From Lichenifustis flavocetrariae (GTDB lineage Bacteria; Pseudomonadota; Alphaproteobacteria; Rhizobiales; Beijerinckiaceae), in the NCBI RefSeq assembly GCF_026130545.1, contig NZ_JAMOIM010000039.1:1-46650 (forward strand): a stretch of DNA of 46,650 nt. The letters are read 5' to 3'. The translations under genes and the position numbers were made by a program. The notes under the pieces are model-generated. The model saw only the letters and a list, made by a program, of their open reading frames with translations, was not told where the DNA came from and did no database searches. Of the stretch, positions 19,626 through 42,989 are shown one piece after another (position 1 is the stretch's first letter; the number at the start of each line of letters is the position of its first letter).

Positions 19626-20048
19626 GCGGAGGCGCTATTTGCCCCAATAACGAATTCGCCTCGGCATGTTGTCGAGCGTGCCACCGTCACCTCATGGATC
19701 AGCGCCCATCCAGCGTCTCAGAATTCCCTGACGCCGTTTATTGTACGGCGGTTCGAAATCTCCCTCGACGGCAGATGGGGTCTCCCTGAACACGAGCACC
19801 GGCCATTGCGGCCTCTTTGACTGGCTGACTTGACTGGAGATCGGCTGCGCCTTGATCACCTGCCGCAACGGCGCCCGCCGACCTTCTTCCCCTGCGTTCC
19901 GCATTCCTCGCGAGGCAAGAAGCCCGTCCGGCACCGTCCTCCGCTGCCGCTGCGGTCCTAACGGATGCGGCGACGATCGCCCCCGGTTCCTGGATCGCCA
20001 TCGAGGCCGCAATGGACGCGGGCTCAAGCGAAAACGGGAGATCACCAA

Positions 20049-20369
20049 ATGACGACCATTGGTACCTTCAAGGCTCAAGGCAGCGAGTTCACCGGCGAGA
20101 TCGCCACCCTCACGATCCGGGCCACCAACGTCCGTATCGCTCCCGTGCAGCGCGCGACCCATACGGGACCCAGCCACCGGGTATATGCCGGCCAAGCCGA
20201 AGTCGGGGCAGCGTGGTCCCGGCGGTCGAAGGAAGGTCGCCCGAACCTTTCGGTCCTGCTCGACGATCCGAGCCTGATCGCCCCGGTCTACGCCAGCCTT
20301 CTGGCCGACGAGGACGGTCGGAGCCACAACCTGCTGTGGTCCCGTGGCAACCGATCAAAGGCCGACTGA
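20049..20369 (+). CDS. DUF736 family protein, copy 1
   Basis: A 106-aa protein of the DUF736 family, common on plasmids and conjugative elements of alphaproteobacteria; function unknown. It begins MTTIGTFKAQGSEFTGEIAT and contains SHRVYAGQAEVGAAWSRR, the LSVLLDDPSLIAP core and a basic LLWSRGNRSKAD ending. There is no membrane segment or signal, so it is probably a small cytoplasmic beta-rich protein. The start is fixed by agreement with the other two copies. It is intact, like copy 3; copy 2 is frameshifted. Confidence 0.88.
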   Translation: MTTIGTFKAQGSEFTGEIATLTIRATNVRIAPVQRATHTGPSHRVYAGQAEVGAAWSRRSKEGRPNLSVLLDDPSLIAPVYASLLADEDGRSHNLLWSRGNRSKAD

Positions 20370-20375
20370 ACGAAC

Positions 20376-20408
20376 GCCGGCGCCCCGGCATTCAGCCAAG
20401 GCGCCGGC
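20376..20408 (+). terminator. Hairpin after DUF736 copy 1
   Basis: GCCGGCGCC (20376-20384) and GGCGCCGGC (20400-20408) form a perfect 9-bp stem 7 nt after the stop. Hairpins with GGCGCC arms and a CAAGGC element near the 3' arm follow all three DUF736 genes. There is no T-run. Confidence 0.6.
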
Positions 20409-20489
20409 AAGCGGCATTGAGGCACGACCGTTCGGCATGAATCGCGGATCATGCGGAGGTAACGGGTGCACGGGTCACGGCATCAACCA

Positions 20490-20864
20490 TCACGCGGCGG
20501 CGAGTTGCCAATTCTGGTCGCGGCGGCGACGCAATTCCAGTTCGACGCCGGGCGGCGGGGCAGCGGCGGGTGAGGGCGGCGGATCGTCGTCTCCGTCGTC
20601 CCGGTGTGGTGCACGGCGCCACCGCATCTTCGACGTGAACCGGGGCTTGGAACCGAGGCCTTGTCCGCTTGCGAATGGCAGTGCCGATGGGCCGCGCGAC
20701 GAGTCCAACGCCCGCAGCGCGGCCAGCACCGTGCCGATGCCGACGATCGCGCCGCTGTCGAGCTGGCGCATCGCTGGCAGGTTCGGCACGGCATGGGCGT
20801 CGGAGGCCCAGGCCGCGAGGACGGCTCGCTTGTCGGCGTCGCTCAGGACCCTGCTATGAAGCAC
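20490..20864 (-). CDS. Conserved hypothetical protein, 124 aa
   Basis: It starts MLHSRVLSDADKRAVLAAWA, a helical acidic N-terminus (about residues 1-50) containing a LRQLDSG-like MRQLDSGAIVGIGTVLAALR segment. A low-complexity, charged and proline-rich C-terminal half follows. I recall similar short proteins in Methylobacterium-type genomes but cannot name the family. No catalytic motif is visible. It converges with DUF736 copy 1. Confidence 0.6.
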   Translation of the reverse strand: MLHSRVLSDADKRAVLAAWASDAHAVPNLPAMRQLDSGAIVGIGTVLAALRALDSSRGPSALPFASGQGLGSKPRFTSKMRWRRAPHRDDGDDDPPPSPAAAPPPGVELELRRRRDQNWQLAAA

Positions 20865-20978
20865 GTCGTACGGGCGGCGATTTGGGAGGGCAGAAAAACG
20901 GCTTCAAGGGGTCCACGAAAAATTTTTGCCCTTTTCACCGTTGGGATCGAAGCTCGAAACGCGACGCGGGTTGGCGCC

Positions 20979-21017
20979 GACGTTACCCGCCGCGTCGACG
21001 TCGTGCCGCACTGGGCA
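20979..21017 (+). repeat. Short repeated coding-like segment (copy A)
   Basis: A 39-bp segment that translates as DVTRRVDVVPHWA. A second segment at 43047-43085 translates as DAFGRIEVVPHWA, and the DNA is nearly identical over the last 24 bp. Copy A is the end of an open frame that stops at 21050. It may be a relic of a duplicated gene or a shared regulatory element; both copies lie downstream of a DUF736 unit. Confidence 0.45.
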
Positions 21018-21046
21018 AGCGTGAGTTTCGGCCCCAGATCGCGGAG

Positions 21047-22189
21047 ATGACAAGCTTCACCACGATGACGCGCGAAGCCGCGCTCGAACGGCTTGCGGCC
21101 GTCATCCCGCACGTCGGCCGGGCCTACGCGTCCGGCCGCAACACCGATGTCGGACCGGACCGGGAACCGACCACGACCGCCCTGTCGCCCTTCCTTCGGC
21201 GCCGGCTGCTGCTGGAGGAGGAAGTCGTGTCGGCTGCCCTGGACGAGCACGGCCCGGAGGCCGCCGGCAAGTTCATCGAGGAGGTCTTCTGGCGCTCATA
21301 CTTCAAAGGCCACCTCGAAACGCGACCCGCGATCTGGACGCGTTACGCTGCCCTGGTCGCCGAGGGGAAGGACCGGATCGCCTCGCAATCCGGTCTGCGC
21401 CGGGTCTACGAGAGCGGCGTGGCCGGGAGCACCGGGATCGACGGATTCGACGACTGGGCACGCGAACTGTCGGAGACCGGGTGGTTGCACAATCACGCCC
21501 GGATGTGGTTCGCCTCCATCTGGATCTTCACCCTGCGACTGCCGTGGGCGCTCGGCGCTGATTTCTTCCTTCGCCACCTCGTCGACGGCGATCCGGCCAG
21601 CAACACCCTGTCCTGGCGATGGGTCGCCGGATTGCACACGCGTGGCAAGGTCTACGCCGCCCGCGCGGACAACATCCGGCGGTACACCGACGGCCGCTTT
21701 TCGCCCCAGGGATTGAACGAGTCGCCGGAGGCGATCGAGGAAGGCGATCCCCCGGAGTTGAAGCCGCTGCCCAGGCCAGATCCGATTCCGAACGGTGAGA
21801 TCGCGCTCTTGCTGCACCTCGATGACCTGTATCCGGAGAGCCTGCCCCTCGGCGAGGCCAAGGTCGTGCGGATCGGTTGCCTCCTTGCCCACCCGCCCGA
21901 TGCCGTGGTGCACGTCCGTCGCGCCGACGAGCAAGCGATGGCTGACGCCCTGGAGCGCGCGAAGGCGTATTTCGGCTGCGATGCCGGGCCGGCCACGGAG
22001 GGGTGGGCCGGCGACCTGCCGATCGTCACGCCGTGGGCGCCCGTGGGCCCGTCCGCGTCGGCCCTCCCGTCCGATAGTTCGCGGATAAGGCGCCGTTGGG
22101 ACGATCTCACCTGGCCGCGAGCCACCAGGGGGTACTTCCAGGTCAAGACGGCCATCCCGTCGATCTTGCGGGATCGCTTGGTTCGCTGA
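21047..22189 (+). CDS. Photolyase/cryptochrome-like FAD-binding domain protein without antenna domain
   Basis: A 380-aa protein matching the helical FAD-binding half of the photolyase/cryptochrome family. Recognisable elements are ALSPFLRRRLLLEEEVV, EEVFWRSYFKGHLE, GIDGFDDWARELSETGWLHN, HARMWFAS and FFLRHLVDGDPASNTLSWRW. These correspond to the flavin and substrate pocket of photolyases. The usual N-terminal alpha/beta antenna domain (about 130-200 residues) is missing. A C-terminal extension (about 250-380) is unlike classical photolyases. Start at 21047: the longer open frame upstream is low-quality shadow sequence. Light-driven repair or blue-light sensing is inferred. Confidence 0.82.
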   Translation: MTSFTTMTREAALERLAAVIPHVGRAYASGRNTDVGPDREPTTTALSPFLRRRLLLEEEVVSAALDEHGPEAAGKFIEEVFWRSYFKGHLETRPAIWTRYAALVAEGKDRIASQSGLRRVYESGVAGSTGIDGFDDWARELSETGWLHNHARMWFASIWIFTLRLPWALGADFFLRHLVDGDPASNTLSWRWVAGLHTRGKVYAARADNIRRYTDGRFSPQGLNESPEAIEEGDPPELKPLPRPDPIPNGEIALLLHLDDLYPESLPLGEAKVVRIGCLLAHPPDAVVHVRRADEQAMADALERAKAYFGCDAGPATEGWAGDLPIVTPWAPVGPSASALPSDSSRIRRRWDDLTWPRATRGYFQVKTAIPSILRDRLVR

Positions 22190-22223
22190 CCTGAGCGGCT
22201 TCCCTCCGTGCGGAGAAAGACGC

Positions 22224-22562
22224 TCAGGTCCCGCCATCCTCGATGGTTCGGTACCACTCGGCATAGGGCGTCGTGCGGGCCATGTGGCGGTTCAGGTCGG
22301 GGGCGCCGTCGTCCCACCAGACCGGGCCACGTTCGCCCAGGGCGATCTTGGCATCGTCGACGGCGGCGGCCGCCAAGGCGTCTCGATCACCGCTTCGTCG
22401 AGCAACACCGACCGCTCGCCTGGCCCGCATCAGTTCGGCGGTGAGCTTGGCGCGTTCAACGTCTGGTAGCGCCGGATTCGTGCAACGCCACAGCCTGCCC
22501 CGGACTACGAAATACCTGCCGTCCGGAGTGACCGGGTATTGCTCAGGCACGCAGCGGCTCAT
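22224..22562 (-). CDS. Conserved hypothetical protein, 112 aa
   Basis: It starts MSRCVPEQYPVTPDGRYFVV, followed by GRLWRCTNPALPD, a helical ERAKLTAELMRARRAVG segment, and ends with WWDDGAPDLNRHMARTTPYA. I recall this architecture (PVTPDGRYFVVRGRLWR with a DGAPDLNRH ending) from many alphaproteobacterial genomes as an unnamed conserved protein, often near DNA repair genes. No catalytic residues can be assigned. It lies 49 nt downstream of the UmuD-like gene in the same direction, so co-transcription is likely. Confidence 0.75.
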   Translation of the reverse strand: MSRCVPEQYPVTPDGRYFVVRGRLWRCTNPALPDVERAKLTAELMRARRAVGVARRSGDRDALAAAAVDDAKIALGERGPVWWDDGAPDLNRHMARTTPYAEWYRTIEDGGT

Positions 22563-22611
22563 TCGGTGAGATCGCGTGCCGCAGTCGCGGCGCGAGGGTA
22601 AGCGTCACGAA

Positions 22612-23151
22612 TCAGAACTTCCGGATGGATGCGCTCACCACGCCCCAGACCTCGAAGTCCGATCCTTCTTTGATTTCGATGTTCTTGAACAAGCGGTTTT
22701 CGGCCTGGAGCCAAACCCGTCCGCCCTTCGTCCTGTACCGCTTGATCGTGAACTCGCCGTCGAGCAGCGCAAGCACGATGGAGCCTTCCGCCGGCGCCCG
22801 GGACCGGTCCACCACGGCGATGTCACCGGGGAAGAGCCCGACGCCCGTCATGCTTTCGCCCGCGATCCGCACCGCGAACGTTGCGGCCGCGTTCGTGACC
22901 AGCAGCTCGTTGAAATCGAGCGGCCGGTCCAGGTGGTCGTCGGCCGGCGATGGGAAGCCACACTCGGCCTGCGACGCCATGAGGGGCACTGTCGCCGCCG
23001 TGCGGGACTCGACGTCCAGGAAAATGTTGATGTCGCCGGCGCGCAGCGTCCGCTCTGCAAGGCGCTTGGCCAGCGACGCAACTGGCAGCGGCAATCTCAC
23101 GACTTTGGTTGCCTCGCCGGGAGGCCTTCCCATTCTCGCCATCGCTGCCAT
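22612..23151 (-). CDS. UmuD-like S24 family peptidase
   Basis: A LexA/UmuD-type self-cleaving protein, 179 aa. The cleavage site is visible at C64-G65 in AECGFPSPA, the nucleophile at S100 (AGESMTGVG) and the general-base lysine at K137 (GEFTIKRY). The N-terminus is longer than in E. coli UmuD and includes a helical KVVRLPLPVASLAKRLAE segment. AGGAAAG precedes the ATG at 23151. No umuC polymerase gene is adjacent and I found no alphaproteobacterial SOS box (GTTC-N7-GTTC) upstream. With the photolyase-like gene nearby it suggests a DNA damage locus. Confidence 0.88.
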   Translation of the reverse strand: MAAMARMGRPPGEATKVVRLPLPVASLAKRLAERTLRAGDINIFLDVESRTAATVPLMASQAECGFPSPADDHLDRPLDFNELLVTNAAATFAVRIAGESMTGVGLFPGDIAVVDRSRAPAEGSIVLALLDGEFTIKRYRTKGGRVWLQAENRLFKNIEIKEGSDFEVWGVVSASIRKF

Positions 23152-23286
23152 GCTTTCCTGACTTCCTGTTACGGAAACTCTGGCAGCTCAAGTTGGGTCC
23201 GGCAAGCGATAACGTTCGCAGCGACCCTGACGGCGGGGAGGCGTCCCTACGGCCCTATGTGGGGAGAGCGGGCCGCCTCCCCGCCG

Positions 23287-24222
23287 TCAGATCGATCGAT
23301 TGCTCCGGGGCGGGTCGCTTCCCGGACGGTCAGCCGCCGTATTCGCTTTCAGGTGGACGACCAGCGCATCGATGAAGACCCGGACCTTGGCCGAGAGGCT
23401 GCGATGGCTCGGGTAGAGCGCGTGGACATCGACCGACTCCGGTTCAAGCGTGGGAAGCACCCGGACCAATTCACTCCTGGCGACGGCGGGGGCGGCGAGG
23501 AAATCCGGAAGGCGCGCGATGCCGCCACCACCGACCAGCACGACGAGCATGGCGGCGGGTTCAGGCACGACCATGACAGGCTGGAACTCGACGGCCGCCT
23601 CCTTGCCCTCGCCGGTGTGGAAACACCACCTCGTTGCCTTGTCGGCCCGGTCCAGGAGGTCGTGGCCGCTCAGGTCGTCCACCGAAGCGGGGACGCCCCG
23701 GGCCGCCAGGTAGGCCGGGCTCGCGCAGGTCCACAGCTGCATCGTGGCTAGGCGGCGGGAGATCAGTCCGGATTCGGCGAGTGTGCCGATCCGCACGACG
23801 AGATCGACATCCTCGGCCAGCACGTCGATCGTGCGGTTGTCGATGCTGAGCACGACGCGGACGTCGGGATACCGCGCGCGGAAGCCGGGCAGCATCGGCG
23901 CCAGCAGCCCCACGGCGAAGGTGAATGGCGCGTTGACCCGCAGCGTGCCACGCGGCTTGCCCGCGAAGCTGCCGAGGGCGTTCCCTGCCTCGTCGACGTC
24001 GTTCAGGATGCGGAGGGCGTGGGGATGCAGGAGGGCGCCGGCGTCGGTCAGTCGAAGGTGCCGGGTCGATCGCTCGACCAGGACCGCGCCCACCGCCGCT
24101 TCCAGCCTCGCCAGCGACCGACTGATCGACGACTTCGGCGCATCGAGGGCGCGCGCCGCCGCCGACACGCTTCGCAGCTCGACGATGCGGACGAAGGCGC
24201 GGAGGTCGACGAGATCCATCAT
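23287..24222 (-). CDS. LysR family transcriptional regulator
   Basis: A regulator of 311 aa from the ATG at 24222 (MMDLVDLRAFVRIVE). The frame is open to 24258 but that start would place the perfect inverted repeat at 24231 inside the gene. The N-terminal winged HTH (SVSAAARALDAPKSSISRSLARLE) and the effector domain starting near residue 90 (GTLRVNAPFTFA) match the GcvA-like subgroup. It diverges from the NmrA-like gene at 24348 and probably regulates it. Confidence 0.92.
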   Translation of the reverse strand: MMDLVDLRAFVRIVELRSVSAAARALDAPKSSISRSLARLEAAVGAVLVERSTRHLRLTDAGALLHPHALRILNDVDEAGNALGSFAGKPRGTLRVNAPFTFAVGLLAPMLPGFRARYPDVRVVLSIDNRTIDVLAEDVDLVVRIGTLAESGLISRRLATMQLWTCASPAYLAARGVPASVDDLSGHDLLDRADKATRWCFHTGEGKEAAVEFQPVMVVPEPAAMLVVLVGGGGIARLPDFLAAPAVARSELVRVLPTLEPESVDVHALYPSHRSLSAKVRVFIDALVVHLKANTAADRPGSDPPRSNRSI

Positions 24223-24230
24223 TCGTCCAT

Positions 24231-24248
24231 CGTTCCAGACGTGGAACG
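24231..24248. promoter_or_regulatory. Probable LysR binding site
   Basis: CGTTCCA (24231-24237) and TGGAACG (24242-24248) form a perfect inverted repeat with a 4-bp centre, 9 bp upstream of the LysR start and about 100 bp upstream of the divergent NmrA-like gene. Such a site is where autorepression by a LysR protein would be expected. Confidence 0.6.
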
Positions 24249-24347
24249 CGCTGTCCAATCGGAGGTGGCTATTCTCCGCATGGGAACGACCTATCTCCTC
24301 GGCATGCCGAATTACCGTGCCGCCGTGTCGGCTCGAAAGGAAAACTG

Positions 24348-25232
24348 ATGACCATTCTGCTGGCGGGGGCGACGGGCGCCCTCGGAGGTCGGATAGCGCG
24401 AGAGTTGCGCCTTCGCCATGTCGACGTGAAGGCGATCGTCCGGCGAGGCACGACGCCCAACAAGATCGCGCGATTGGAGGCCCTGGGCGTGACCGTCGTG
24501 GAACTCGATCCCGACGACGGTTCGCAGGTGACGGCGGCCTGTCGCGGCGCGTCCTGCGTGGTCTCGGCCCTGAACGGCCTGCGTCCCGTGATCATCGACA
24601 CTCAGGAGGTGTTGCTCCAGTCGGCGGTCGCCGCCGGCGTGCCACGCTTCATCCCCTCGGACTTCTCCCTCGACTTCACGAAGACGCCACCTGGCAGCAA
24701 CCGCAACCTCGACCTTCGCCGCGACTTCCACAAGCTGCTCGACGCGGCGCCGATCAAGGGCACCTCCATTCTGAACGGTGGCTTCATGGAGCTGCTGGCG
24801 GGCCAGGCGCCGTTCCTCCTCTTCAAGCCCAAACGCGTGCTCTACTTCGGGGACGTCGACCAGCGGCTCGACTTCACGACCATGGACGACGTCGCCGCCT
24901 TCACGGCCGAGGCGGCACTCGATCCCACGACGCCGAGGGTCCTCCGCATCGCCGGTGACCAGGTCAGCGCGCGTGACTTGGCCGCTATCGCCGGCAAGGT
25001 CACGGGCAAGCCGTTTAAGACGTTGCGCGCCGGGAACCTTGGAGCGCTCGCTGCGGTGATACGGATTCTGCGGGCAGTCGCGCCGGGCCGGCGGTCGGTT
25101 TTCCCGCCGTGGCAGGGCATGCAGTACATGCACAACATGTTCACCGGACAAGGGAAGCTCGCACCCCTCGACAACGGTCGCTATCCGGGGCTGCGCTGGA
25201 CGTCGGTCGCTGAGGTGCTTGCCACTCGCTGA
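24348..25232 (+). CDS. NmrA/isoflavone reductase-like NAD(P)-binding protein
   Basis: An atypical SDR of 294 aa. The first strand and glycine motif (LLAGATGALGGRIA, about residues 4-17) bind NAD(P); R32-R33 downstream (IVRRGTT) suggest NADP preference. The FIPSDFSLDFTK segment and a lysine-free active site fit the isoflavone reductase-like group. GGAAAACTG precedes the ATG. It is a single gene divergent from LysR; probable role: reduction of an aromatic or electrophilic compound (inference). Confidence 0.88.
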   Translation: MTILLAGATGALGGRIARELRLRHVDVKAIVRRGTTPNKIARLEALGVTVVELDPDDGSQVTAACRGASCVVSALNGLRPVIIDTQEVLLQSAVAAGVPRFIPSDFSLDFTKTPPGSNRNLDLRRDFHKLLDAAPIKGTSILNGGFMELLAGQAPFLLFKPKRVLYFGDVDQRLDFTTMDDVAAFTAEAALDPTTPRVLRIAGDQVSARDLAAIAGKVTGKPFKTLRAGNLGALAAVIRILRAVAPGRRSVFPPWQGMQYMHNMFTGQGKLAPLDNGRYPGLRWTSVAEVLATR

Positions 25233-25540
25233 GCGGGAACGCCGCTTGAACGATTGGTCCGTGTCACCGGCGCCTCCTCCCCTTTAGGCTATCCCCACGC
25301 CTCGCGGCCCCTTCGACTGGCTGACCTGACCGGAGGGCGGCTTCGCCTCGATCGCCTGCCGCAACGGCGTCGGCCGAGCTTCTTCCCCTGCATCCCGCAT
25401 TCCTCGCGAGGCAAGAAGCCCGCCTTTGCCGTCCTCCGCTGACGCTGCGGTCCGAACGGATGCGGCGTCGATCGCCCCCGGTACCTGGATCGCCATCGAG
25501 GCCGCGATGGACGCGGGCTCGATCGAAACGGGAGATCGAC

Positions 25541-25863
25541 ATGACGACCATCGGGACCTTCAAGGCCAACGGCAACGAGTTCACCGGCGAGATCGCCACC
25601 CTCGGGTTCCAGGCGAAGCAGGTCCGCATCGTCCCGGCGAGCCGCCCAGGCTCGGACAGCGCGTCCAGCCACCGGGTTTACCTCGGCCCATCCGAGTCGG
25701 GGCCGCGTGGTCCAAGAAGTCGAGCGAAGGCAAGCCGTACCTATCGTTGCTCCTCGACGCACCGACGCTCATCGCGCCGTTCTACGCCAACCTGCTTCCC
25801 GGGGAGAACGGAGCCGAGCACGTCCTCGTCTGGTCGCGCGGCAGCCGGCGAAAGGCAGACTGA
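25541..25863 (+). pseudogene. DUF736 family protein, copy 2, frameshifted
   Basis: It starts MTTIGTFKANGNEFTGEIAT like the other copies, but one base is missing at about 25696/25697 (GAGTCGGG where GAGGTCGGG is expected). The product would then run on to 26029 as unrelated sequence. The next frame continues correctly with VGAAWSKKSSEGKPYLSLLL and ends SRGSRRKAD at 25863, so the restored protein is 107 aa. Nothing else is wrong with it, so either a very recent mutation or a sequencing error explains it. Confidence 0.82.
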
Positions 25864-25870
25864 CATCGCA

Positions 25871-25899
25871 GGCGCCGCTGCCCACAAGGCCGGGGCGCC
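25871..25899 (+). terminator. Hairpin after DUF736 copy 2
   Basis: GGCGCC (25871-25876) pairs with GGCGCC (25894-25899), with a CAAGGC element near the 3' arm, in the same position as the hairpins following copies 1 and 3. The stem is shorter (6 bp). Confidence 0.45.
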
Positions 25900-25940
25900 G
25901 AATGTCGGCCAGTGCGCTGCCGGGATGGTAAGCTCGTTCC

Positions 25941-26660
25941 ATGCGAGTCGGTGCCTTCCAGCGATTTTCGATCTTCGACGATCCCGGCCGGGCGATCGAG
26001 GGGATCGCGCGCGATTGCTCGCTCGCTGACGAGAGGGGGGTCGATCTTGCGCTCTTCCCCGAAGCCTACCTACAAGGGCACGCCTACGATGAGGGCCTGA
26101 TCGAGCGACGTGCCGTGACCCTCGATGGCCCCGTGGTGGGAGGTATGCTCCGACGTTTGTCGGGCGTCAAAGCCGTCGTGATCGTCGGCCTGTTCGAGCG
26201 GCGCGGATCGCATATCCTCAATAGCGCCGTCGTGATCGAGGGCGGTCGCATCGTCGGCGTCTATGCCAAGGCCTTTCCCATTGAGGACGGGTGCGTGCCT
26301 GGAACGGACTTCCCGGTCTGGACGCGTTCCAATTGGACATTCGGCATCAACATCTGCAACGACCTGAACCACCCTTGCGCCGCCGAACGGCTCACGACCC
26401 AGGGTGCACGACTGATCCGCGCCCCGATCAACATGACCCTCCGCGCGAAGAAGGCGGACCGGTGGCGTGTCCCCACCCTGGACAACCTCAAAGACACCGC
26501 GCGGCGATCACGGTGCTGGCTCATCGCGGCCGACGTGGCCGGTCCCGGGTTGGACGGTTGGTTCAGCTATGGCTGCACGGCCATCATCTCGCCGGACGGG
26601 ACTGTCGTGGGCCGTTCCGCCGAGCTGGTCGAGGACATGGTCATCTTCGACCTGCCCTGA
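25941..26660 (+). CDS. Carbon-nitrogen hydrolase (nitrilase superfamily)
   Basis: A cytoplasmic amidohydrolase of 239 aa with the Glu-Lys-Cys triad of the nitrilase superfamily: E41 (LFPEAYLQGHA), K109 (YAKAFPIE) and C138 (GINICNDLNHP). It is shorter than typical nitrilases and resembles the omega-amidase and carbamoylputrescine branch. The substrate is not predictable. It converges with a second nitrilase superfamily gene on the other strand, overlapping its 3' end. Confidence 0.87.
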   Translation: MRVGAFQRFSIFDDPGRAIEGIARDCSLADERGVDLALFPEAYLQGHAYDEGLIERRAVTLDGPVVGGMLRRLSGVKAVVIVGLFERRGSHILNSAVVIEGGRIVGVYAKAFPIEDGCVPGTDFPVWTRSNWTFGINICNDLNHPCAAERLTTQGARLIRAPINMTLRAKKADRWRVPTLDNLKDTARRSRCWLIAADVAGPGLDGWFSYGCTAIISPDGTVVGRSAELVEDMVIFDLP

Positions 26661-27527
26661 GACCATCAGGCCCGGTAGCACCGCCCCGGACCCGGCCGCC
26701 CTGGAATGACGGACCATTTCGAAGAAGCGGTCCTGTTCCGGATCGTCGGCAAGCGCGTTGAGCACGAAGTCCGTTTCGTTAAGCATGGCCTTCCGGCCGG
26801 CATGGCCGCTCCGCTCGACCCAGAAGCTCGGAAAATCCTGGGTCGGACGGCAGGAATTTGAGACACTCACGGCGAACTGGTTCAGCCACGCGTAGCCCTG
26901 CATCAGGGACGGGATAGTGTGGGCGTGGTTCCTTTGCCGGTGCGCATCGTCGGCCACGCAGGAATGAAGGACCAATTCGACCTGACCGGCATAGGCGGAC
27001 CACAGCTCGGGGAACGCCCAATCGAGGCAGATCAGGAAGCCGCAGCGAACCCCGTCGATCTCGACAACGAGTTGCCGGTCCCCAGGGCGGAAGGCGCGAA
27101 GATCGTTCGCGGAACAGCGGCGCTTGTCATAGCGGCCGGCGATCCGGCCGTCCCTGTCGACGACCGTCAGCGCGTTCGTCGGCCGAATGTCGGGGCCGCC
27201 ACGATGGACGGATCCCAACACCACCCAGATCCGATCCTGACGGGCTTGCTCGCGCACGGCGTCCCAGGCCCGCTCAAGCGCGACCCAGTCGAAGCGGGAC
27301 CAATCGGGCCAGTTCGCCGGCCCGTAGCCCGACAGCGCGCATTCCGGGAAGTGCGCGACGTCGGCCCCTGCGGCAGCGGCTCGGCGGATGAGATCCAGCA
27401 CGTGGCCCAGGTTCCGGTCGATGGCGTGCAGGACCGGCAACTGGCAGGTCGCCACCGTCAGGCGGGACGGGGCAGCGGTGCCGGACGGGGGAACGTCCCA
27501 CGTGTAGCCACCCGTCCATTTCGCCAT
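26508..27527 (-). CDS. Carbon-nitrogen hydrolase (nitrilase superfamily), second copy
   Basis: 339 aa from the ATG at 27527 (GGAGG upstream); the longer open frame to 27722 overlaps the GNAT gene. The catalytic triad is E62 (HFPECALSGYG), K135 (YDKRRCSAND) and C167 (GFLICLDWAFPE). The sequence is family-like to about 26700 (FFEMVRHSRAAG). The last 50 codons run antisense to the end of the converging hydrolase and look unlike a nitrilase, so the natural C-terminus is probably lost or altered. It lies 20 nt after the GNAT gene in a four-gene minus-strand operon. Confidence 0.82.
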   Translation of the reverse strand: MAKWTGGYTWDVPPSGTAAPSRLTVATCQLPVLHAIDRNLGHVLDLIRRAAAAGADVAHFPECALSGYGPANWPDWSRFDWVALERAWDAVREQARQDRIWVVLGSVHRGGPDIRPTNALTVVDRDGRIAGRYDKRRCSANDLRAFRPGDRQLVVEIDGVRCGFLICLDWAFPELWSAYAGQVELVLHSCVADDAHRQRNHAHTIPSLMQGYAWLNQFAVSVSNSCRPTQDFPSFWVERSGHAGRKAMLNETDFVLNALADDPEQDRFFEMVRHSRAAGSGAVLPGLMVSGQVEDDHVLDQLGGTAHDSPVRRDDGRAAIAEPTVQPGTGHVGRDEPAP

Positions 27528-27547
27528 AAGCGTTCCTCCGATTGGCG

Positions 27548-34132: not shown

Positions 34133-34154
34133 CCCGCACGGCGACTCTGCTGCG

Positions 34155-35473: not shown

Positions 35474-36703
35474 GCGACTGGGTCGCGCCCATGGGCCTCT
35501 CCATCCACCAATCTGCATCCCCGTCCGGCGATACCGTCTACTGGCCCGAACGCCTTCCGCCGCGCGGAGGCAGGGTTTGCTTGCACGGCAGTGACGGCGG
35601 GTTTTCGGGGTGGAACGACGTGAGCTGCTTGTTGCTGGCCGCCAACTTGCTGGCCGCCAACGGTTTCGTGGCGCTGGCGCACAGCTACAACCGGCCACGC
35701 CAGTCCGGCCGGGCGCCCGGCATCGATAGCGCGCTTCTCGACGGCACCGAAGCCGCGCTCGCCTTCCTGAAGCAGGAGCTTGCCGGCCATCGGTGCGGTG
35801 TCGGGTTGTTCGGCTACTCCAGGGGCGCGGAGCATGCACTACTCGCTGCGCAGCTCATGGCAGAAGATGGCAGCGACGCCACCCCAAGCGCCGTGGCAGT
35901 TCACTCGCCGCAGGATGCCATCTGGCCGGCCTTCATCCTGTCGGACTTCGAGACCGGCAGGGACTGGGATGGCGACCGGCATCTCCCCGCGTGGACATGG
36001 CGCGGCAACGCCGACCGTACGATGCCCGGAACGCTTTGGCGAGGCACCACGTCCCTATCCCGTACTGATCACGCAGGGAACCGAGGACGAGGTCTGGAAT
36101 GCTGATTACGCCCGCCAGCTGGCCGACCGCATGGCTGCGGCTGGAACGCAAGTGGAAGCGCATTTCTTCGGCGGCGAGATTCACGCCTTTCGTCCAGACG
36201 CGCGCAATCGGGAATGGCAACTCACCGTCGATTTCTTCAGCCGGCATCTGGCTCCTCGATTGATCGGCATGCGTCCGGCTCTCGAAAACGACAAGCCTTA
36301 TCTCGTCTGGCTGGAAGAGGCCTGCATGCGGGAGTACGCGGTCGCCCTGTGGGGCGAGTGGCCGCCGGAACTCGGCGTGCGCACCACAGTCGCGGGATGC
36401 CGCATCATCATGGTCGACGGCAAAACCGCAGGCTGCGTCACCACGGAGGCGCTCGTCGATCATTTATGGCTCGACGAGCTGTTCATCGCGCCGACGTTTC
36501 AGCGGCTGGGTGTCGGTTCGCATATCCTAAAGCAGGTCGTCAGCGAGGCTAAGCGCGTTTCCCTCCCGCTCAGACTGAGCGTGCTGACCACCAATCCAGC
36601 CATCGCCTTCTACCTCCGGCACGGCTTACGCGTCCGCGAGCGGACGGCAGAGAGAATTTATCTCACCTCCGAGCTGCCGGTTCGACGACCGACGTCCCGG
36701 TGA
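35470..36703 (+). pseudogene. Alpha/beta hydrolase-GNAT fusion, frameshifted
   Basis: The N-terminal part (GTG at 35470 overlapping the preceding stop) is a dienelactone hydrolase-like domain: VCLHGSDGGFSGW and the nucleophile elbow FGYSRGAEHALL near residue 117. One extra G at about 36028 shifts the frame. The following frame completes the hydrolase (PVLITQGTEDEVWNADYA, GGEIHAFRPDARN) and runs straight into a GNAT domain (MRPALENDKPYLVWLEEACM ... LFIAPTFQRLGVGSHILK), ending at 36703. The restored protein would be 410 aa with two enzyme domains. The GNAT part alone could initiate at the ATG near 36268. Confidence 0.78.
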
Positions 36704-36828
36704 CCTGCCCGGCCGCCGTTTCGCCGGCACGGCCGGCGGACGAGGCTCAAAGGGGACGACGTCAGCTCGGTCGCTGAAGTGGAACAGGCTCCCGTCCATT
36801 GATGCTGGCAACGGCTAGGTGTCCTGCC

Positions 36829-37369
36829 TCATTGCAGATTGGTGTGGCGGCGCCACATGGCGGCCTGCGCGTCCGGCCCCGATCCAAGACGAAGTGCCAA
36901 GGCGTCGAACATCACGAGGCAGGCCTGCTCGAACACCGAGCCGCCGAACTGGACGGACGCGTCCATCGGCACGGTCAGGAGCAAATCCGAAGTCCGAGCC
37001 AACAGGCTTTCCGGCTTGTGCGTGACGACGACCAAGGTCGCGCCTTCGGCCTCGGCGGTGGTGGCGAAGGAGGTGCTCACCGGCGTCTTGCCGGACCCGC
37101 AAACAAGCACCAGCGTATCGCCTTGCCGGATGGCTGGTGCCGTGACCTCACCTACGACATGCACCGGCGTAGCCGGCGTGCATGAGTCGCACCGCCGCCA
37201 TCTGCGCGATCAGACCGGACCTGCCCTGGCCTGAGAAGAACAGACGGCCGTCTTTGGCCTCAAAGGCTTTGGCCAAGTGCTCGAACTGCGAAGGATCGAC
37301 CTGCGCCAACAAGGCGCTCAGTTCCCTCTCAACCACCGCCCAGGGTGCAGCCATGGTTTCTTCGCGCAT
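36829..37369 (-). pseudogene. hxlB: 6-phospho-3-hexuloisomerase-like SIS protein, frameshifted
   Basis: The N-terminus (FFSGQGRSGLIAQMAAVRLMHAGYA) and C-terminal half (MHVVGEVTAPAIRQGDTLVL, SGKTPVSTSFATTAEAEGAT, FGGSVFEQACLVMFDAL) together match 6-phospho-3-hexuloisomerase, the second enzyme of the ribulose monophosphate formaldehyde pathway. One extra G at about 37165 (GCCGGTGCAT for GCCGTGCAT) splits the frame into two. The restored length is 179 aa, as in the family. The hexulose-phosphate synthase partner is absent, so even intact it would be an orphan. Start at 37369 taken by fit to the family. Confidence 0.8.
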
Positions 37370-37445
37370 CGCCCGCTGACCTTTTCTATCGCGCGAAAGA
37401 CTTGCAGACTCGGCATCCTGTGTCACCGGCTTGCCAGGAGAAACA

Positions 37446-38222
37446 ATGAGCTTCGGTCGCATCGCAGTCCTGGCGGACATTCACGGCAATCTGCCGGCCC
37501 TGGAGGCCGTCTTGGCTGAAGTTGATGCCGCCCGGGTCGACGTCGTGGTCCTGAACGGCGACCTCGCGGATGGCCCGTTCCCGACCGGGACGCTCGAACG
37601 GCTTGAGGCGCTCGGGGATCGCGCGATCTGGCTGCGCGGCAACGGCGACCGGTGGCTGGCCGAGGCGCGAGCGGGCCGCTACCACCATGCCGACGTGGCC
37701 ACCGATGCGATGATTCAGTGGGCGGCACGAGCGATCTCGGAGGCACAAGCGGAACGCCTCGGTGCATTGCCGCTCTCCTGCACGTTTGCCGTTGCCGGAT
37801 TGGGAACGGTCGGGATATGCCACGCGACGGGCCGCAACGACGACGAAATGTTCCTCGTGGACAGCAGCCTCGACCATGCGTTGGCGGCCTTCGCCGCATT
37901 GGAGGGCGACACGGTCGTCCTCGGTCATTGCCACATGCCCTTCGACCGCCTCTTTAACCGACGCCGCTTCATCAACGCAGGATCGGTCGGGATGCCTTAC
38001 GGACACATGGGTGCGTCCTGGCTCCTGCTCGGTGCCGAGGTCGTCCTGAAACGGACGCCCTACGACGTGGAGCGCGCCATTGAGCGCATGCTCGTGAGCG
38101 GCATGCCTGGCGTGGAGGATTTCGTCGAAAGCTACGTGAAGGCGACTCCGAGCGATGCGGAGGCGCTGACAGACTACCGCGAGATCTTGCAGCGCCAGCA
38201 GCAGGCGCAGGACTTCGGTTGA
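37446..38222 (+). CDS. Metallophosphoesterase
   Basis: A calcineurin-like phosphoesterase of 258 aa. The metal-binding motifs are in order: LADIHGN (about residues 9-15), LNGDLAD (about 36-42), LRGNGDRW (about 65-72) and GHCHMP (about 163-168). It resembles YfcE/MJ0936 diesterases and the protein phosphatase-like group. AGGAG lies upstream of the ATG at 37446. Divergent from the hexuloisomerase gene, with 76 bp between starts. Substrate unknown. Confidence 0.9.
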   Translation: MSFGRIAVLADIHGNLPALEAVLAEVDAARVDVVVLNGDLADGPFPTGTLERLEALGDRAIWLRGNGDRWLAEARAGRYHHADVATDAMIQWAARAISEAQAERLGALPLSCTFAVAGLGTVGICHATGRNDDEMFLVDSSLDHALAAFAALEGDTVVLGHCHMPFDRLFNRRRFINAGSVGMPYGHMGASWLLLGAEVVLKRTPYDVERAIERMLVSGMPGVEDFVESYVKATPSDAEALTDYREILQRQQQAQDFG

Positions 38223-38359
38223 AACTCCACCGTCGTGAGCCCGGTCAAGGTGCCGGATTGAAGGCTGCTGCCATCTCCCGGACACGGTAGGTCACCTGCC
38301 AGCCGCCGCCACCTTCAGCATCATGGGCGAGGAACATTCCAGGTACGGTGCCTGAACAT

Positions 38360-38775
38360 TCAAGCCGATGCCTTGCGGGCTGCGAAGGCCATGTGAACTC
38401 CGACGGCGGCGAACACGACCAGACCGCCGGCGATGGTACCGCTGCCGAGCGTCTCGGCGAAGACCAGCCACACCCACAGGGGCGCGAGCGGCGCATCGAG
38501 GGCGCCGATGAGCGCGGTCTCGACCGGGGGCAGAAGGCGGGCTCCCAAAGTGAACAGTGCCAGGCCGGCTGCCGAGTTGACGAGGCCGAACGACACCAGG
38601 AGCAACAGGTCGGTGCCGCCGATCGCCAGAGGGTGTCCGAGCGGCCAGCACGCCAGTCCGCTCAACAAGGCCGACAGGGCCGCCGCCGCGAGGGCCGAAA
38701 CGCCGCCGAAGCGGCGCGCCAGCACCATCATGCCGGCCACGGCGACCGTCATCCCGAGCGCGAGGGCGTCACCGA
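38360..38775 (-). pseudogene. EamA/DMT family transporter, truncated
   Basis: About 130-137 codons encode four or five hydrophobic helices of the second EamA repeat (GDALALGMTVAVAGMMVLAR, SALLSGLACWPLG, LLLLVSFGLVNSAAGLALF, PLWVWLVFAETLGSGTIAG). The first EamA repeat is missing. Homology ends abruptly at about 38775, where a fragment of a response regulator begins on the opposite strand. So this is the 3' half of a broken drug/metabolite transporter gene. Confidence 0.75.
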
Positions 38776-38880
38776 ATACTCCGCAACGGCCACCTCGAAC
38801 CCGGCATGCAGGTGGTCACCAAGCCGCTCGCGATGGAAACGCCGGCGCGACGGATCAAGGGGATGATCACCGAGTGGTGA
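38773..38880 (+). pseudogene. Receiver-domain C-terminal fragment
   Basis: The plus strand reads RILRNGHLEPGMQVVTKPLA, then METPARRIKGMITEW and a stop at 38880. LxPGMxVxTKP-A is the last strand and helix of a two-component receiver domain, with the conserved K-P pair. No upstream part exists. It abuts the truncated EamA gene, so this is a rearrangement junction. It is not part of the neighbouring kinase, which is on the other strand. Confidence 0.7.
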
Positions 38881-38917
38881 GCCGTCGCATAGGGGCGATC
38901 CTAAGTGACCTCGGAGC

Positions 38918-40624
38918 CTAGGCAGTCCGAGTAGGCTTCGCACGACTGCCTTCCGCCGCCTTTTGGAGCACGCGGGACAGGTCCTCGATCGAATAGGGCT
39001 TGTGCAGCAGTTCAAAGCCGTGGCTGCCGTCCTGGGCCAGGACCTGACTGTACCCCGACGTTAGCACGACCGGCAAGTCCGGGTGCAAGCGCCTTACTTT
39101 CTGGCCAAGCTCGATCCCGTTCATGCCCGGCATCATCACGTCGGAGAACATGATGTCGAATGCGTCTGCGGTCAGTTCCAGCACGGAGAGGGCTTGCGCG
39201 GCGTCGCACGCAAGCGTCGTTCGGTACCCGAGTTCCTGGAGGGCCTGGACCGAGAACGCGCCGACATCCGCGTTGTCCTCCACCAGCAACACGGACGTGC
39301 CATGGCCGGCGACCAGAGGCGCGGGCACCGGTGCCGCATCCGTTTCGACGGCGGGCTCTTTCACGCTCGGAAGATAGAGCGTGAACGTCGTGCCCCGGCC
39401 GACCTCGCTCTCCACCGCGACCGACCCACCCGATTGCTTCGCGAACCCGAACACCTGCGAGAGGCCGAGGCCGGTCCCCTGGCCGACCGACTTCGTCGTG
39501 AAGAACGGTTCGAAGATCCTCTCCAGGTCGCCCGAGGCGATTCCCGATCCGGTATCGGAGACGGAGACGGCGACGAAGGCACCCCAAACCTCCGGGTGCG
39601 CGCGCGCGGCCGGTATGCGCGACGCCGGTTCGACGATGATCGTCAGTCGTCCTTCGCCGTCCATGGCGTCGCGAGCGTTGACGGCGAGGTTGATGAGCGA
39701 CGTGTCGAATTGACTTGGATCGGCGTTGATGAAGCAGGCCGCATCCGGCAGACGCTTGTCGATCGCGATGCGGGATCCCGTGAGGGGGGCGACCATGTCG
39801 GCTACCGTGTGCACGGAATTAAGAACGCCGAACACCTCGGGCTTGAGCGATTGCCGGCGCGCGAAGGCGAGAAGCTGACTGGTCAGCTTGGACGCGCGGG
39901 TTGTAGTGTCCGAGATCGCCTCGACGTAACGTCGGCGCCGCTCCTCGGCCAGATCCGGCCGTTTCAGCAGGTCCACCGACGACCGGATCACGGTCAGCAG
40001 GTTGTTGAAGTCATGCGCGACGCCACCCGTGAGTTGGCCGATCGCCTCCATCTTCTGGGATTGCCGAAGGCTCTCCTCGACCCGTTCCCGCTCGGCCATC
40101 TCATCGCGCAGCGCGCTGTTCGCGGCCGCCAGGGCCTTCGTCCGTTCCACCACCCGCGCTTCCAGCGCCTCCGCGGCGTGGGATTGGGCCCTCAGAAAGA
40201 CGCGAACCTCGTATTGGCGGATCCGCGACCGTACGGCTGCCGAAACCATGCTCGTCAGGTTCAGCGCCTGCACCGGCCGCTCAAGCAACGAGACATTGCG
40301 CAATGTCCGAACCGTCGCCTGGCGCCACGCCAGGAGAGGCGGCCGCGCCTGACGGCTCGTCAGCATCACGAAGGGCAGATCCGACCAGGGCGGTTGTCCC
40401 TCGACCCACGCGATCAGGGGCGAGAGATCCTTGCCGACCAGGGCCTCCTCGGCGACGAACACTGCCGCCGCGCCGACCTGGATCCTCGCGACCAAGTCGA
40501 CCAGATCGCGGCAGATCTCGACGGACATGCCGGCACGGCGAAGGACCTCGGCCGAGGCCGGACCGTCACGGCCGATCGGGGCGAGGATGAGGACGCGACT
40601 GGTTGCTTCCTCAAGCGCCGTCAA
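38918..40624 (-). CDS. Hybrid histidine kinase with N-terminal pseudo-receiver
   Basis: A 568-aa cytoplasmic hybrid kinase. Residues 1-125 look like a receiver fold lacking clear acidic phosphoacceptors. A coiled coil follows (about 145-195), then the HisKA dimerisation domain with H204 (GGVAHDFNN), the HATPase domain with N316 (NLAVNARDA), DTGSGIA (358-363) and GQGTGLGLS (381-389), and a C-terminal receiver with phosphoacceptor D495 (MFSDVMMPG). There is no transmembrane segment. The ATG at 40624 overlaps the end of the KaiC-like gene by 14 nt, so the two are co-translated and are probably functional partners. Confidence 0.93.
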   Translation of the reverse strand: MTALEEATSRVLILAPIGRDGPASAEVLRRAGMSVEICRDLVDLVARIQVGAAAVFVAEEALVGKDLSPLIAWVEGQPPWSDLPFVMLTSRQARPPLLAWRQATVRTLRNVSLLERPVQALNLTSMVSAAVRSRIRQYEVRVFLRAQSHAAEALEARVVERTKALAAANSALRDEMAERERVEESLRQSQKMEAIGQLTGGVAHDFNNLLTVIRSSVDLLKRPDLAEERRRRYVEAISDTTTRASKLTSQLLAFARRQSLKPEVFGVLNSVHTVADMVAPLTGSRIAIDKRLPDAACFINADPSQFDTSLINLAVNARDAMDGEGRLTIIVEPASRIPAARAHPEVWGAFVAVSVSDTGSGIASGDLERIFEPFFTTKSVGQGTGLGLSQVFGFAKQSGGSVAVESEVGRGTTFTLYLPSVKEPAVETDAAPVPAPLVAGHGTSVLLVEDNADVGAFSVQALQELGYRTTLACDAAQALSVLELTADAFDIMFSDVMMPGMNGIELGQKVRRLHPDLPVVLTSGYSQVLAQDGSHGFELLHKPYSIEDLSRVLQKAAEGSRAKPTRTA

Positions 40625-42137
40625 CCGACCCCTCCTTCATCAGCGGCTTGCTGTCCCCCGTGTATCGAGGCGTGCCCGAGAAGATGCCGCTGAAATCGGT
40701 GAGGGGCGGCCCGAGGGTCACGCCTTGCGAGGTCAGCTGGAACTCGCGGATGCTGTGTTCGTGGCTGCCGCTCCGCTTCTTGACGACCGAGAGCATTCGC
40801 CTCACGTTGCCGGCATATTCGAAGTACCGCACCATCAAAACGGCGTCGCTCAGGTAGCTGATGTCGAGCGGGGTCTCCATGGGCCCGACGAGCCCGTGCT
40901 GCGCGAGCACCAGGATCGTCAGCACCCCCCTCTGGCCGAGATAGGTCAGAAGCTCATGCATCTGGAGGATCAGGAATCGACCATCCGGCATGGCGTTCAG
41001 GTAGCCGTTGAGGCTGTCGATCACGACGAGCCGGGCGCCGTTGACCTCGACGCTGCGTCGTACCGTGGCGGCGAACTCGCCCGGCGACAGCTCGGCGGGA
41101 TCAATCTGCTGGTAGCGGATGCGGCCGTTCTCCATGGCCGCCCGCAAGGGAAGCCCGAGGGTTCGGGCTCGGGCTTCCAGGGTTCCCCGCCCTTCATCGA
41201 AGGCGAAGAAGGCACAGGTCTCCCCGCGCTCGGCTGCCGCGATCGCGTAGGTCAGCGCGACCGAGGACTTGCCGACGCCGGCAGCTCCGATCAGGAGTGC
41301 GTTCGTCCCCCGCTCCAGGCCGCCGCCCAGCATCCTGTCCAGGTCCGCGTTGCCGCTCGGAACGAATCCGGTGTCGAACGAAGCGTGGTGCTCGGCAGCG
41401 ACGAGGCGGGGATAGATCTCCAGGCCGCCCCGCTTGATGGTGAAATCGTGGTAGCCGCCCCGGAACTGAATGCCCCGCATCTTGACGACGCGGAGCCGCC
41501 GACGCTCCGCCCCGTACTCGATCGCGATCTGTTCGAGCAGCACGACGCCATGGGCTATCGAGTGAAGCTGGATGTCGGTTTCATGCGAGGAAAGGTCATC
41601 GAGGACGATCAGGGTGCATGACCGGCTCGAAATGAAATGTTTCAACGCGAGGACCTGACGCCGGTAACGCAGGTGGCTCTGCGCCAGGAGACGCAATTCC
41701 GAAAGGCTGTCGAAGACGACCCGGGACGGGTTCGACGCGTCTATCCTGTCGAAGACCAGCTTCGTCGTTTCGCTGAGTTCTATTTCTGCCGGATGGAACA
41801 CCGTGAGTTCCTGCTCGGGGTCCAGGGTGACTTCCCTCGGGACCAGCTCGAAAACCTCGATCCCGTCCAGGGACCATCCGTGCCGCTTGGCGACGAGGGT
41901 CAGTTCCGCGAGCGTCTCGGACAGGGCGATGTAGAGGACGCGTTCGCCTTGCCGAACGCCTTCGAGGAGGAATTGCAAGGCGATGGTCGTCTTGCCCGAG
42001 CCGGGGCTGCCTTCGTAGAGGTACATGCGGTTCGGGTCTAGGCCGCCGCCTAGAATGTCGTTCAGGCCCTCGCTGCCCGTCGAAATGCGCGGTACTTCCT
42101 CGTCGGAGTCCTGGTTTGTCTCCGGCTTGTCGATCAT
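40611..42137 (-). CDS. KaiC-like double RecA-domain ATPase
   Basis: A 508-aa KaiC-family protein with two RecA-like domains: Walker A at 43-50 (GSPGSGKT) and 284-291 (GAAGVGKS), Walker B at VVFDSL (140-145) and VVIDSL (371-376). The tandem catalytic glutamates of KaiC are S73-E74 and D314-E315, so each domain keeps one. At the CII phosphorylation site the segment reads DISYLSD: S427 matches Ser431 of cyanobacterial KaiC, but Thr432 is a tyrosine. No kaiA or kaiB is nearby. The role is probably light, redox or stress signalling with the hybrid kinase rather than a clock (inference). Confidence 0.93.
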   Translation of the reverse strand: MIDKPETNQDSDEEVPRISTGSEGLNDILGGGLDPNRMYLYEGSPGSGKTTIALQFLLEGVRQGERVLYIALSETLAELTLVAKRHGWSLDGIEVFELVPREVTLDPEQELTVFHPAEIELSETTKLVFDRIDASNPSRVVFDSLSELRLLAQSHLRYRRQVLALKHFISSRSCTLIVLDDLSSHETDIQLHSIAHGVVLLEQIAIEYGAERRRLRVVKMRGIQFRGGYHDFTIKRGGLEIYPRLVAAEHHASFDTGFVPSGNADLDRMLGGGLERGTNALLIGAAGVGKSSVALTYAIAAAERGETCAFFAFDEGRGTLEARARTLGLPLRAAMENGRIRYQQIDPAELSPGEFAATVRRSVEVNGARLVVIDSLNGYLNAMPDGRFLILQMHELLTYLGQRGVLTILVLAQHGLVGPMETPLDISYLSDAVLMVRYFEYAGNVRRMLSVVKKRSGSHEHSIREFQLTSQGVTLGPPLTDFSGIFSGTPRYTGDSKPLMKEGSVDGA

Positions 42138-42183
42138 GGCCTCATTCCTGTCGCGGGCTTGCCACTCCCAGGTGCAGGGGAAT

Positions 42184-42198
42184 GTGATCGTTGATCAC
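42184..42198. promoter_or_regulatory. Palindrome upstream of the KaiC-like gene
   Basis: GTGATC-GTT-GATCAC is a perfect inverted repeat 46 bp upstream of the KaiC-like ATG (42137). A transcription factor operator is likely. I looked for, but did not find, an EcfG-type GGAAC...GTT promoter. Confidence 0.5.
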
Positions 42199-42632
42199 GC
42201 CAGCCGTTCTGACCGCGTCAGGACAAGACGTTATGGCGGCAGTGGGTTCGTGTCTACGGGCCAGGATCCGGTGGGTATGTGGCCGATTCGGCAACGGAAG
42301 TACCTCGCCAAGACGGCGCGCGACGCGACGTGGCGGTTCGCTGGACGGACGGTCGCCTCTCTTCACCTCCCTCCTGAGCAGGCGCCCGAGCGGCCTCTTC
42401 GACTGGCTGACCTGACCGGAGGACGGCTTCGCCTCGATCTCCTGCCGCAACGGTGCCGGCCTGCCTTCATCCCCTGCGGCAGGGCCACATTCCTCGCAAG
42501 GCAAGAAGCTTGTCCAGCGACGTCCTCCGCTGGCACTGCGGTCCTGACAGATGCGGCGTCGATCGCCTCCGGCACTTGCATCGCCATCGAGACCGCGATG
42601 GACGCGGGCCCAAGCGGAAGCAGGAGATCGAC

Positions 42633-42953
42633 ATGAGCGTCATCGGCACCTTCAAGTCCAACGGCAACGATTTCACCGGCGAGATCGCCACCCTCACCAT
42701 ACGGGCAAGGGACGTCCGGATCGTCCCCGCCAAGCGGACCGCGGAAAACGGGCCGAGCCACCAAGTCTACGCCGGTCAAGCCGAGATCGGCGCGGCCTGG
42801 AGCAAGAGGTCCAAGGAGGGTCGGAACTACCTGTCGGTTCTCCTCGATGACCCGAGCATGATGGCGCCGTTCTACGCCAGCTTGGTGTCGAACGATGAGG
42901 ATAAGGACCACAGCCTTCTCTGGTCGCGGGGCACCCGACGCGACCGGGATTGA
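42633..42953 (+). CDS. DUF736 family protein, copy 3
   Basis: 106 aa, intact. It starts MSVIGTFKSNGNDFTGEIAT and includes SHQVYAGQAEIGAAWSKRS, LSVLLDDPSMMAP and the basic SLLWSRGTRRDRD ending. AGGAG lies about 8 nt upstream. Role unknown (see copy 1). It faces away from the KaiC operon, separated by the leader and about 250 bp of spacer. Confidence 0.88.
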   Translation: MSVIGTFKSNGNDFTGEIATLTIRARDVRIVPAKRTAENGPSHQVYAGQAEIGAAWSKRSKEGRNYLSVLLDDPSMMAPFYASLVSNDEDKDHSLLWSRGTRRDRD

Positions 42954-42960
42954 CGGTAGT

Positions 42961-42989
42961 ACGGCGCCTCGTCCAAGGCGGGGCGCCGT
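42961..42989 (+). terminator. Hairpin after DUF736 copy 3
   Basis: ACGGCGCC (42961-42968) pairs with GGCGCCGT (42982-42989), starting 8 nt after the stop. CAAGGC lies near the 3' arm as in the other copies. Confidence 0.6.

Follow-up and report, generated by a model that had tools for sequence, protein, structure and literature searches.

Results

Three DUF736 units share a leader

The window, by which we mean the whole 46,650-nucleotide (nt) stretch analysed here (contig NZ_JAMOIM010000039.1, our C113), belongs to the 7.5-megabase, 180-contig genome of Lichenifustis flavocetrariae and carries three copies of a unit whose leader is the subject of this study. Alignment of the units starting at 19808, 25304 and 42390 shows that they share this leader, a gene of the DUF736 family and a 3' hairpin, with 241, 237 and 243 nt between the start of the unit and the ATG (20049, 25541 and 42633, respectively). 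In unit 1, a giant branched hairpin at 19808-20023, structured on the minus strand, which is the template of DUF736, is followed by an intact DUF736 gene of 106 amino acids (aa) on the plus strand (20049-20369; PF05284 E 2e-27; ATG and TGA read) and by a terminator-like guanine-cytosine (GC) hairpin on the same strand at 20376-20408. The core of the leader hairpin is matched at 19832-19987 by the covariance model R1, described below, with 150.2 bits and 66 of 72 consensus pairs kept. Unit 3 is built alike, with its hairpin on the minus strand at 42390-42609 (core 42414-42573, 145.2 bits, 64 of 73 pairs), an intact plus-strand gene of 106 aa at 42633-42953 (PF05284 E 2.7e-30) and a terminator-like hairpin at 42961-42989 (+). 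An earlier note on this DNA placed the three units and gave the leader as 237 to 243 nt, and both points stand; the DUF736 gene of unit 2 (25541-25863, +), which it had counted as one more gene, is a frameshifted pseudogene, as seen from the alignment and from Pfam pieces at 25547-25696 and 25690-25839 that lie in different frames. The minus-strand hairpin of unit 2 (25304-25518; core 25328-25482, 150.5 bits) nevertheless keeps the most pairs of the three, 69 of 72, and a terminator-like hairpin follows at 25871-25899 (+).

The window DUF736 genes score above the curated PF05284 cut-off. Between units 1 and 3 the nonsynonymous divergence (dN) is 0.245 and the synonymous divergence (dS) is 1.02, and by their sequences the two intact genes are under purifying selection. 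A dS of about 1 means that the window copies are old, which rules out a recent duplication. The 3' hairpins, identified by folding and by comparison with other DUF736 genes, are a different matter. In 3' flanks folded and judged by eye, a GC-rich stem-loop follows 20 of 22 DUF736 genes from outside the window (the exceptions are L013 and L024, and in L024 the gene is cut short), and these stem-loops are mostly unrelated in sequence, so the 3' hairpin looks like an ordinary terminator. We discarded it as part of the conserved system, of which it had previously been taken as a shared element.

The leader is a covarying branched hairpin

To define the structure, 98 match entries were reduced by hand to 64 leaders (30 weak or other-gene matches were removed, and four more as duplicates or for N) and then thinned to the 57 of alignment A4. 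The leader folds into one branched hairpin of about 220 nt, with a consensus of about 72% GC. Its 73 consensus pairs make up an outer stem, a three-way junction from which a small side hairpin branches, and a bulged apical stem. The apical stem, TTTCTTG/GGGGAAGAAA, carries the almost invariant bulge CGCGAGGAA, nine consecutive apex columns of which the first is paired and eight are unpaired, each at least 93% conserved. Across the 57 leaders, 86.5% of the cells are paired, compared with 77.7% in shuffles; 49 pairs, compared with 33.9, are changed on both sides; and 312 cells have both sides changed, compared with 96.8 (standard deviation, 7.8). The covariation score is 0.270, compared with 0.145 in shuffles, and falls to 0.05-0.09 when the partner is slid by 1 to 3 columns.

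Related hairpins precede other genes. In some genomes the apex TTTCTTG..CGCGAGGAA..GGGGAAGAAA is found again upstream of ardC and of other genes, and the ardC leaders of Ti-type plasmids match the junction part only. Leaders of DUF2493 genes gave an alignment of their own, 24 sequences and 81 pairs in the same design, with a folding score of -175 for the template strand and -157 for the coding strand. For the ArdC leaders taken by themselves, 10 sequences in a poor alignment, a test for covariation gave no lead. No match at the Rfam gathering score was obtained in the window or in the leaders of five other loci searched; a known Rfam family was rejected, as the five weak matches fall in the 3' hairpin or the gene and none in the leader.

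The hairpin is widespread and faces DUF736 from the opposite strand

A DNA search found the leader in 17 of 60 relatives, host genome included, and in 496 of 72,556 plasmid records, of which 325 are typed as conjugative. R1, built from the non-mRNA strand of 22 leaders, matched 25 of 385 genomes of the class and 38 of 398 genomes of the phylum (the host genome is counted in each), 54 of the latter 398 having DUF736; five R1-positive genomes lie outside the class (G455, G538, G608, G756 and G776). Leaving out the host genome, the phylum sample contains 70 R1 matches, and for 54 of them a DUF736 match follows at 63 to 101 nt on the other strand; a same-strand DUF736 adjoins none of the 70. Eleven of the other 16 start no more than 40 kilobases (kb) from a DUF736 leader, each with at least one neighbouring DUF736 leader of its own orientation and, in G021, also one opposed.

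In a separate sample, the best 80 of at least 594 relatives drawn with an alignment of 30 DUF736 proteins and without use of the leader, the hairpin lies directly upstream of DUF736 in 79 loci, mostly of named Alphaproteobacteria (L178 lacks it), and all 94 hairpin matches are on the strand opposite to DUF736. That the leader is conserved at the nucleic acid level, as the earlier note proposed, is borne out by the covariation and by wide conservation in the 80-locus, plasmid and phylum samples. The note also considered that conservation might be confined to recent duplicates and lack covariation; we found strong covariation, the hairpin at all but one of 80 loci and old copies in the window.

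Two further loci have the hairpin beside a damaged or missing gene: on a Lichenihabitans plasmid (L054, 12024-12180) it precedes a cut-short DUF736, and in G436 (L089, 16092-16236) it stands before a Mu-type transposase frame without an intact DUF736.

The strand complementary to the mRNA folds

If both strands mutate equally, a Watson-Crick (WC) pair decays to G-T and A-C alike, and only the folding strand tolerates G-T. We grouped 134 leaders into 67 sister pairs and kept the 64 with at least 60% identity, the three below not being counted; five of the 79 leaders of the 80-locus sample were omitted (L164, L165, L168, L180 and L183), and L146 and L169 were represented by another copy in the locus. 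At strand-neutral pairs, chosen without wobble, changes from WC to G-T outnumber those from WC to A-C by 147 to 69 (binomial P = 1.2e-7), and with the sister pair as the unit, 38 favour G-T and 11 favour A-C (P = 1.4e-4). Slid control positions under the same filter gave 473 versus 532, and the union of both strands' folds gave 235 versus 118. The excess of G-T over A-C means that the folded strand is the complement of the mRNA; on this comparison of sequences, the selected structure is on the template strand of the downstream gene. With DNA and with RNA parameters alike, the same strand folds more stably in 62 of the 64 leaders, and after correction by shuffles it is favoured in 47 of 64 (DNA) and 51 of 64 (RNA), part of the raw difference being composition.

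Genes downstream of the hairpins

The 98 match entries precede DUF736 (60), DUF2493 (14), ArdC (8) and a 57-aa gene (1), with no assignment for 15; one site is counted more than once (L024 and L054), and the genes were assigned by blastp to 14 reference proteins and tallied by eye. Most annotated plasmid loci have the leader flanked by ParB, toprim, DUF2493 or ArdC genes on one side and by transfer genes on the other. Seven of nine annotated ArdC-type genes have a hairpin match at E ≤ 0.1 (L098, L103, L104, L105, L222, L223 and L224), as do the annotated DUF2493 genes of L055, L056 and L102. In the window, some 25 nt separate the base of the hairpin from the start codon.

The DUF736 protein offered few further clues. 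An AlphaFold2 (AF2) prediction for unit 3 is all beta, with a best mean predicted local distance difference test (pLDDT) score of 81.5 among five models ranging from 38.8 to 81.5. No solved relative was found by sequence at E ≤ 0.1, and a fold search returned no PDB match at E ≤ 0.001 (best PDB E 0.24) and one uncultured phage protein at 6e-5. Searches of defence and NCBI family libraries gave no lead, and among five stretches of viral contigs none was confirmed. By its gene neighbourhoods, DUF736 is placed among plasmid establishment genes, and a protective role for the protein may be inferred.

Several neighbours in these regions deserve mention. A gene for a protein of about 195 aa, similar in size throughout, stands before ardC in L098 (13790-14377), L103 (10885-11472) and L105 (13718-14305), with strong template-strand folding upstream of it in L103 and L105 (z = -4.82 and -4.41); the proteins of L098 and L103 have no Pfam match. 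Plasmid p42a (L098) carries the Rfam small-RNA families ar15 and Atu_Ti1 at 9020-9130 and 26753-26845, ar15 lying in the leading region with the helicase gene on one side and the ParB gene on the other. On the Nitrobacter plasmid (L105), genes of a cyclic-oligonucleotide-based antiphage signalling system (CBASS) occupy 22622-26608, some 6 kb beyond DUF736.

On Ti-type plasmids the folding strand is the transferred strand

The origin of transfer (oriT) of Ti plasmids reportedly shares identity with RSF1010, judging by the title under which Cook and Farrand are said to have published in 1992. A putative nick site resembling TATAATTGCG/CCC lies between traC and traA in pAtC58, p42a and pSR5. Together with pT173a, pRle248a, pSfreGR64b, pRlX4 and R. 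lusitanum p_2, these make eight Q-type (MOBQ) plasmids, and each has exactly one nic-like site in the stretch examined, on the minus strand in the traC-traA gap (in pSR5, where traA is not annotated, just past traC). All 19 hairpins with E ≤ 0.05 on the eight plasmids are on the strand of the nic-like site, 4,186 to 11,603 bases away on the leading side, and therefore the folding strand is the transferred strand (T-strand) on Ti-type plasmids. The hairpin-linked genes run towards oriT, like the genes of the F leading region. RSF1010 is reported to be cut at TAAGTGCG/CCCTCCC (PMC4814116), and by likeness to it the transferred 5' end would lead towards traC, DUF736 and ardC.

The units of the window in their genome

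The host genome has nine DUF736 matches, two of which are pieces of unit 2, and 13 leader matches by DNA search, fragments included, or 11 by the covariance model. Contig C97 holds two of the 11, near ParB, toprim and DUF2493 genes and the coupling protein of a type IV secretion system. A Pfam scan of 30 open reading frames of the window gave no transfer gene. The window units lie outside any visible transfer region and were probably inherited from conjugative elements. Elsewhere in the window, units 1 and 3 are each followed by a copy of a 43-nt direct repeat (81%), at 20978-21020 and 43046-43088, with no copy reported behind unit 2, and a KaiC-type ATPase gene on the minus strand (40611-42137) is upstream of unit 3.

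Discussion

The leader that we describe is probably the double-stranded form of a single-stranded DNA (ssDNA) start signal that would work like Frpo and let genes be expressed early in the recipient cell. The Frpo/ssi promoters are reported to be leading-region ssDNA that folds and serves RNA polymerase before the second strand is synthesized (PMC9849209, PMC11541004), and anti-defence genes of the leading region are reported to lie on the T-strand (PMC11541004). By this analogy, a conjugative element would enter the recipient as a single T-strand, on which the leader of about 220 nt would fold into its long branched hairpin; the folded strand being the template of the downstream gene, the hairpin would start transcription, and perhaps also primer RNA, on the incoming strand, and the establishment genes (ardC, DUF736 and the DUF2493 gene) would be expressed before the second strand is made. 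At the level of sequence, the data show the structure, the covariation, the folded strand and the gene set and, for Ti-type plasmids, the place in the leading region and the direction towards oriT. Folding in vivo, use by the polymerase and early timing we infer.

The likeness to the Frpo/ssi elements described for F and ColIb-P9 extends to several features: a structure on the incoming strand, a place in the leading region, several copies, and a position directly before anti-restriction or establishment genes. The hairpins of all eight MOBQ plasmids have the leading-region place, and the strand test together with the strand of the nic-like site puts the stem-loop on the transferred strand, the template of the gene. 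Unlike Frpo, the hairpin is about 72% GC, is branched by a three-way junction and has an almost invariant apical bulge; it occurs in Alphaproteobacteria and, beyond them, in a few genomes of the phylum, and its downstream set is DUF736, ArdC and DUF2493. Over 23 kb of the F leading region R1 finds nothing at E ≤ 10 (the Frpo sequences themselves were not aligned), which speaks against identity with Frpo, and on linear scans for the boxes we rejected a sigma-70 promoter in the leader. We therefore write that the leader would work like Frpo and not that it is Frpo. ArdC offers a second comparison, since it is reported to bind ssDNA and to be required in the recipient, not the donor, for transfer of R388 to Pseudomonas putida (PMC7213743). 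Most ardC genes in the elements studied here share this kind of hairpin (seven of nine), and no ArdC match was found in the host genome. DUF736 genes (msi110) are reported on all ICEMlSym(R7A)-like elements of Mesorhizobium, often duplicated; the passage on msi110 mentions neither a leader nor a hairpin. Our literature searches on DUF736, ssDNA promoters, leading regions and ArdC, largely limited to papers outside subscription, showed no description of the hairpin element among the papers listed.

Several observations weigh against the ssDNA start signal. TTGACA and TATAAT boxes were absent from one leader in a linear scan, and over 134 trimmed leaders the best 12-base sigma-70 match averaged 6.44, below the 6.93 of mononucleotide shuffles. 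Folding z-scores are not specific: in a set of 131 intergenic regions, those of the DUF736 leaders lie anywhere between -6.87 and -0.36, and the unit 3 leader on its own folds weakly (z = -0.90, with 36 of 200 shuffles as good). The intergenic z-score was dropped as a hairpin detector. In a thinned set of 18 sequences the strand asymmetry shrinks to 37 versus 24 raw cells for core pairs and 40 versus 33 for helix extensions. The query proteins of the 80-locus sample themselves came from leader-bearing loci, so that the sample leans to such DUF736 genes, and L027 (G021) has two leaders in opposite directions (680-837 and 1561-1725), the sole exception noticed to the common orientation. Among ArdC-type genes, L101 has no match and L053 was matched in one separate scan only (E 0.066), and the annotated DUF2493 genes of L099 and L101 have no hairpin match. 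The nick pattern was derived from pAtC58, p42a and pSR5, the first three of the eight plasmids, and the nick search covered Q-type sites only. Finally, synonymous variation in DUF736 codons 1 to 20 is 0.50 bits versus 0.87 elsewhere (9 and 47 sites), which leaves room for an extra signal there; a later threonine site (codon 38) is likewise uniform.

The main rival reading of the folded strand is a structured antisense RNA, made from near the start codon, that represses or times the gene. It would fit the lower synonymous variation at the start of DUF736, the folding of the non-mRNA strand and the tolerance of G-U, which is typical of RNA. We nevertheless consider it quite unlikely: DUF736, ArdC and DUF2493 are unrelated genes that would each need an antisense promoter at the start, the position of all Ti-type hairpins on the T-strand side of the nick would be left unexplained, and the leaders searched match no Rfam family. 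It is also unlikely that the hairpin is a single-strand initiation site of the ssi or sso type that primes second-strand synthesis, in which case expression would be absent or a side effect. Such a site would agree equally well with the structure and its place on the T-strand, the leaders are without sigma-70 boxes, and the title of a paper on Frpo names it for transcription and primer RNA alike; the near-constant place before start codons (the 63 to 101 nt from R1 match to DUF736 domain) and the several copies per element, most of them before a gene, point instead to expression.

Two explanations raised by the earlier note fare worse. A cis-acting mRNA leader through which DUF736 regulates itself would account for the place before DUF736 and for the covariation, but the structure is selected on the wrong strand, the strand test giving no sign of a structure conserved on the mRNA strand, as a cis-regulatory leader would have. 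Similar hairpins also stand before ArdC, DUF2493 and other genes, and the second DUF736 paralogue, which adjoins traF, lacks a match at E ≤ 0.1 in each of its six annotated loci (L055, L057, L099, L101, L102 and L107); we rejected this explanation as very improbable. Spread of gene units through a recombination or insertion site, either an attC-like hairpin or a miniature inverted-repeat transposable element, is hardly more credible. Compact units are scattered in one genome with no transposase beside them, and attC sites are likewise folded single strands. However, throughout the phylum sample the hairpin keeps its orientation and its place before the same genes, and at a dS of about 1 the copies of the window are old, so that conserved limits need no mobility. 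What survives of the proposed link to mobile elements is that the leader belongs to conjugative ones.

Beyond the ssDNA start signal itself, we can suggest only tentatively a broader picture, which is less likely than not to hold. The hairpins could be pan-alphaproteobacterial ssDNA start signals, recognized by shape (the three-way junction and the CGCGAGGAA bulge) and not by sigma-70 boxes, through a factor other than that of Frpo; they could control an establishment regulon of ardC, DUF736, DUF2493 and unknown genes, with DUF736 as an anti-defence or establishment protein. Enterobacterial plasmids are the known source of ssDNA promoters. A survey of 2024 searched with five known sequences and looked for new candidates by TTGACA and TATAAT boxes, a design that would be expected to miss this hairpin, and its text contains no word starting with "rhizobi" (PMC11541004). 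If the ssDNA start signal proposed here is real, rhizobial, agrobacterial, sphingomonad and rhodobacterial plasmids would have their own version of ssDNA promoters, and the hairpin would be a marker for unknown establishment and anti-defence genes. It would also give a testable role to DUF736, which is seldom named in the papers searched, and it may reveal the direction of transfer of elements without a known oriT.

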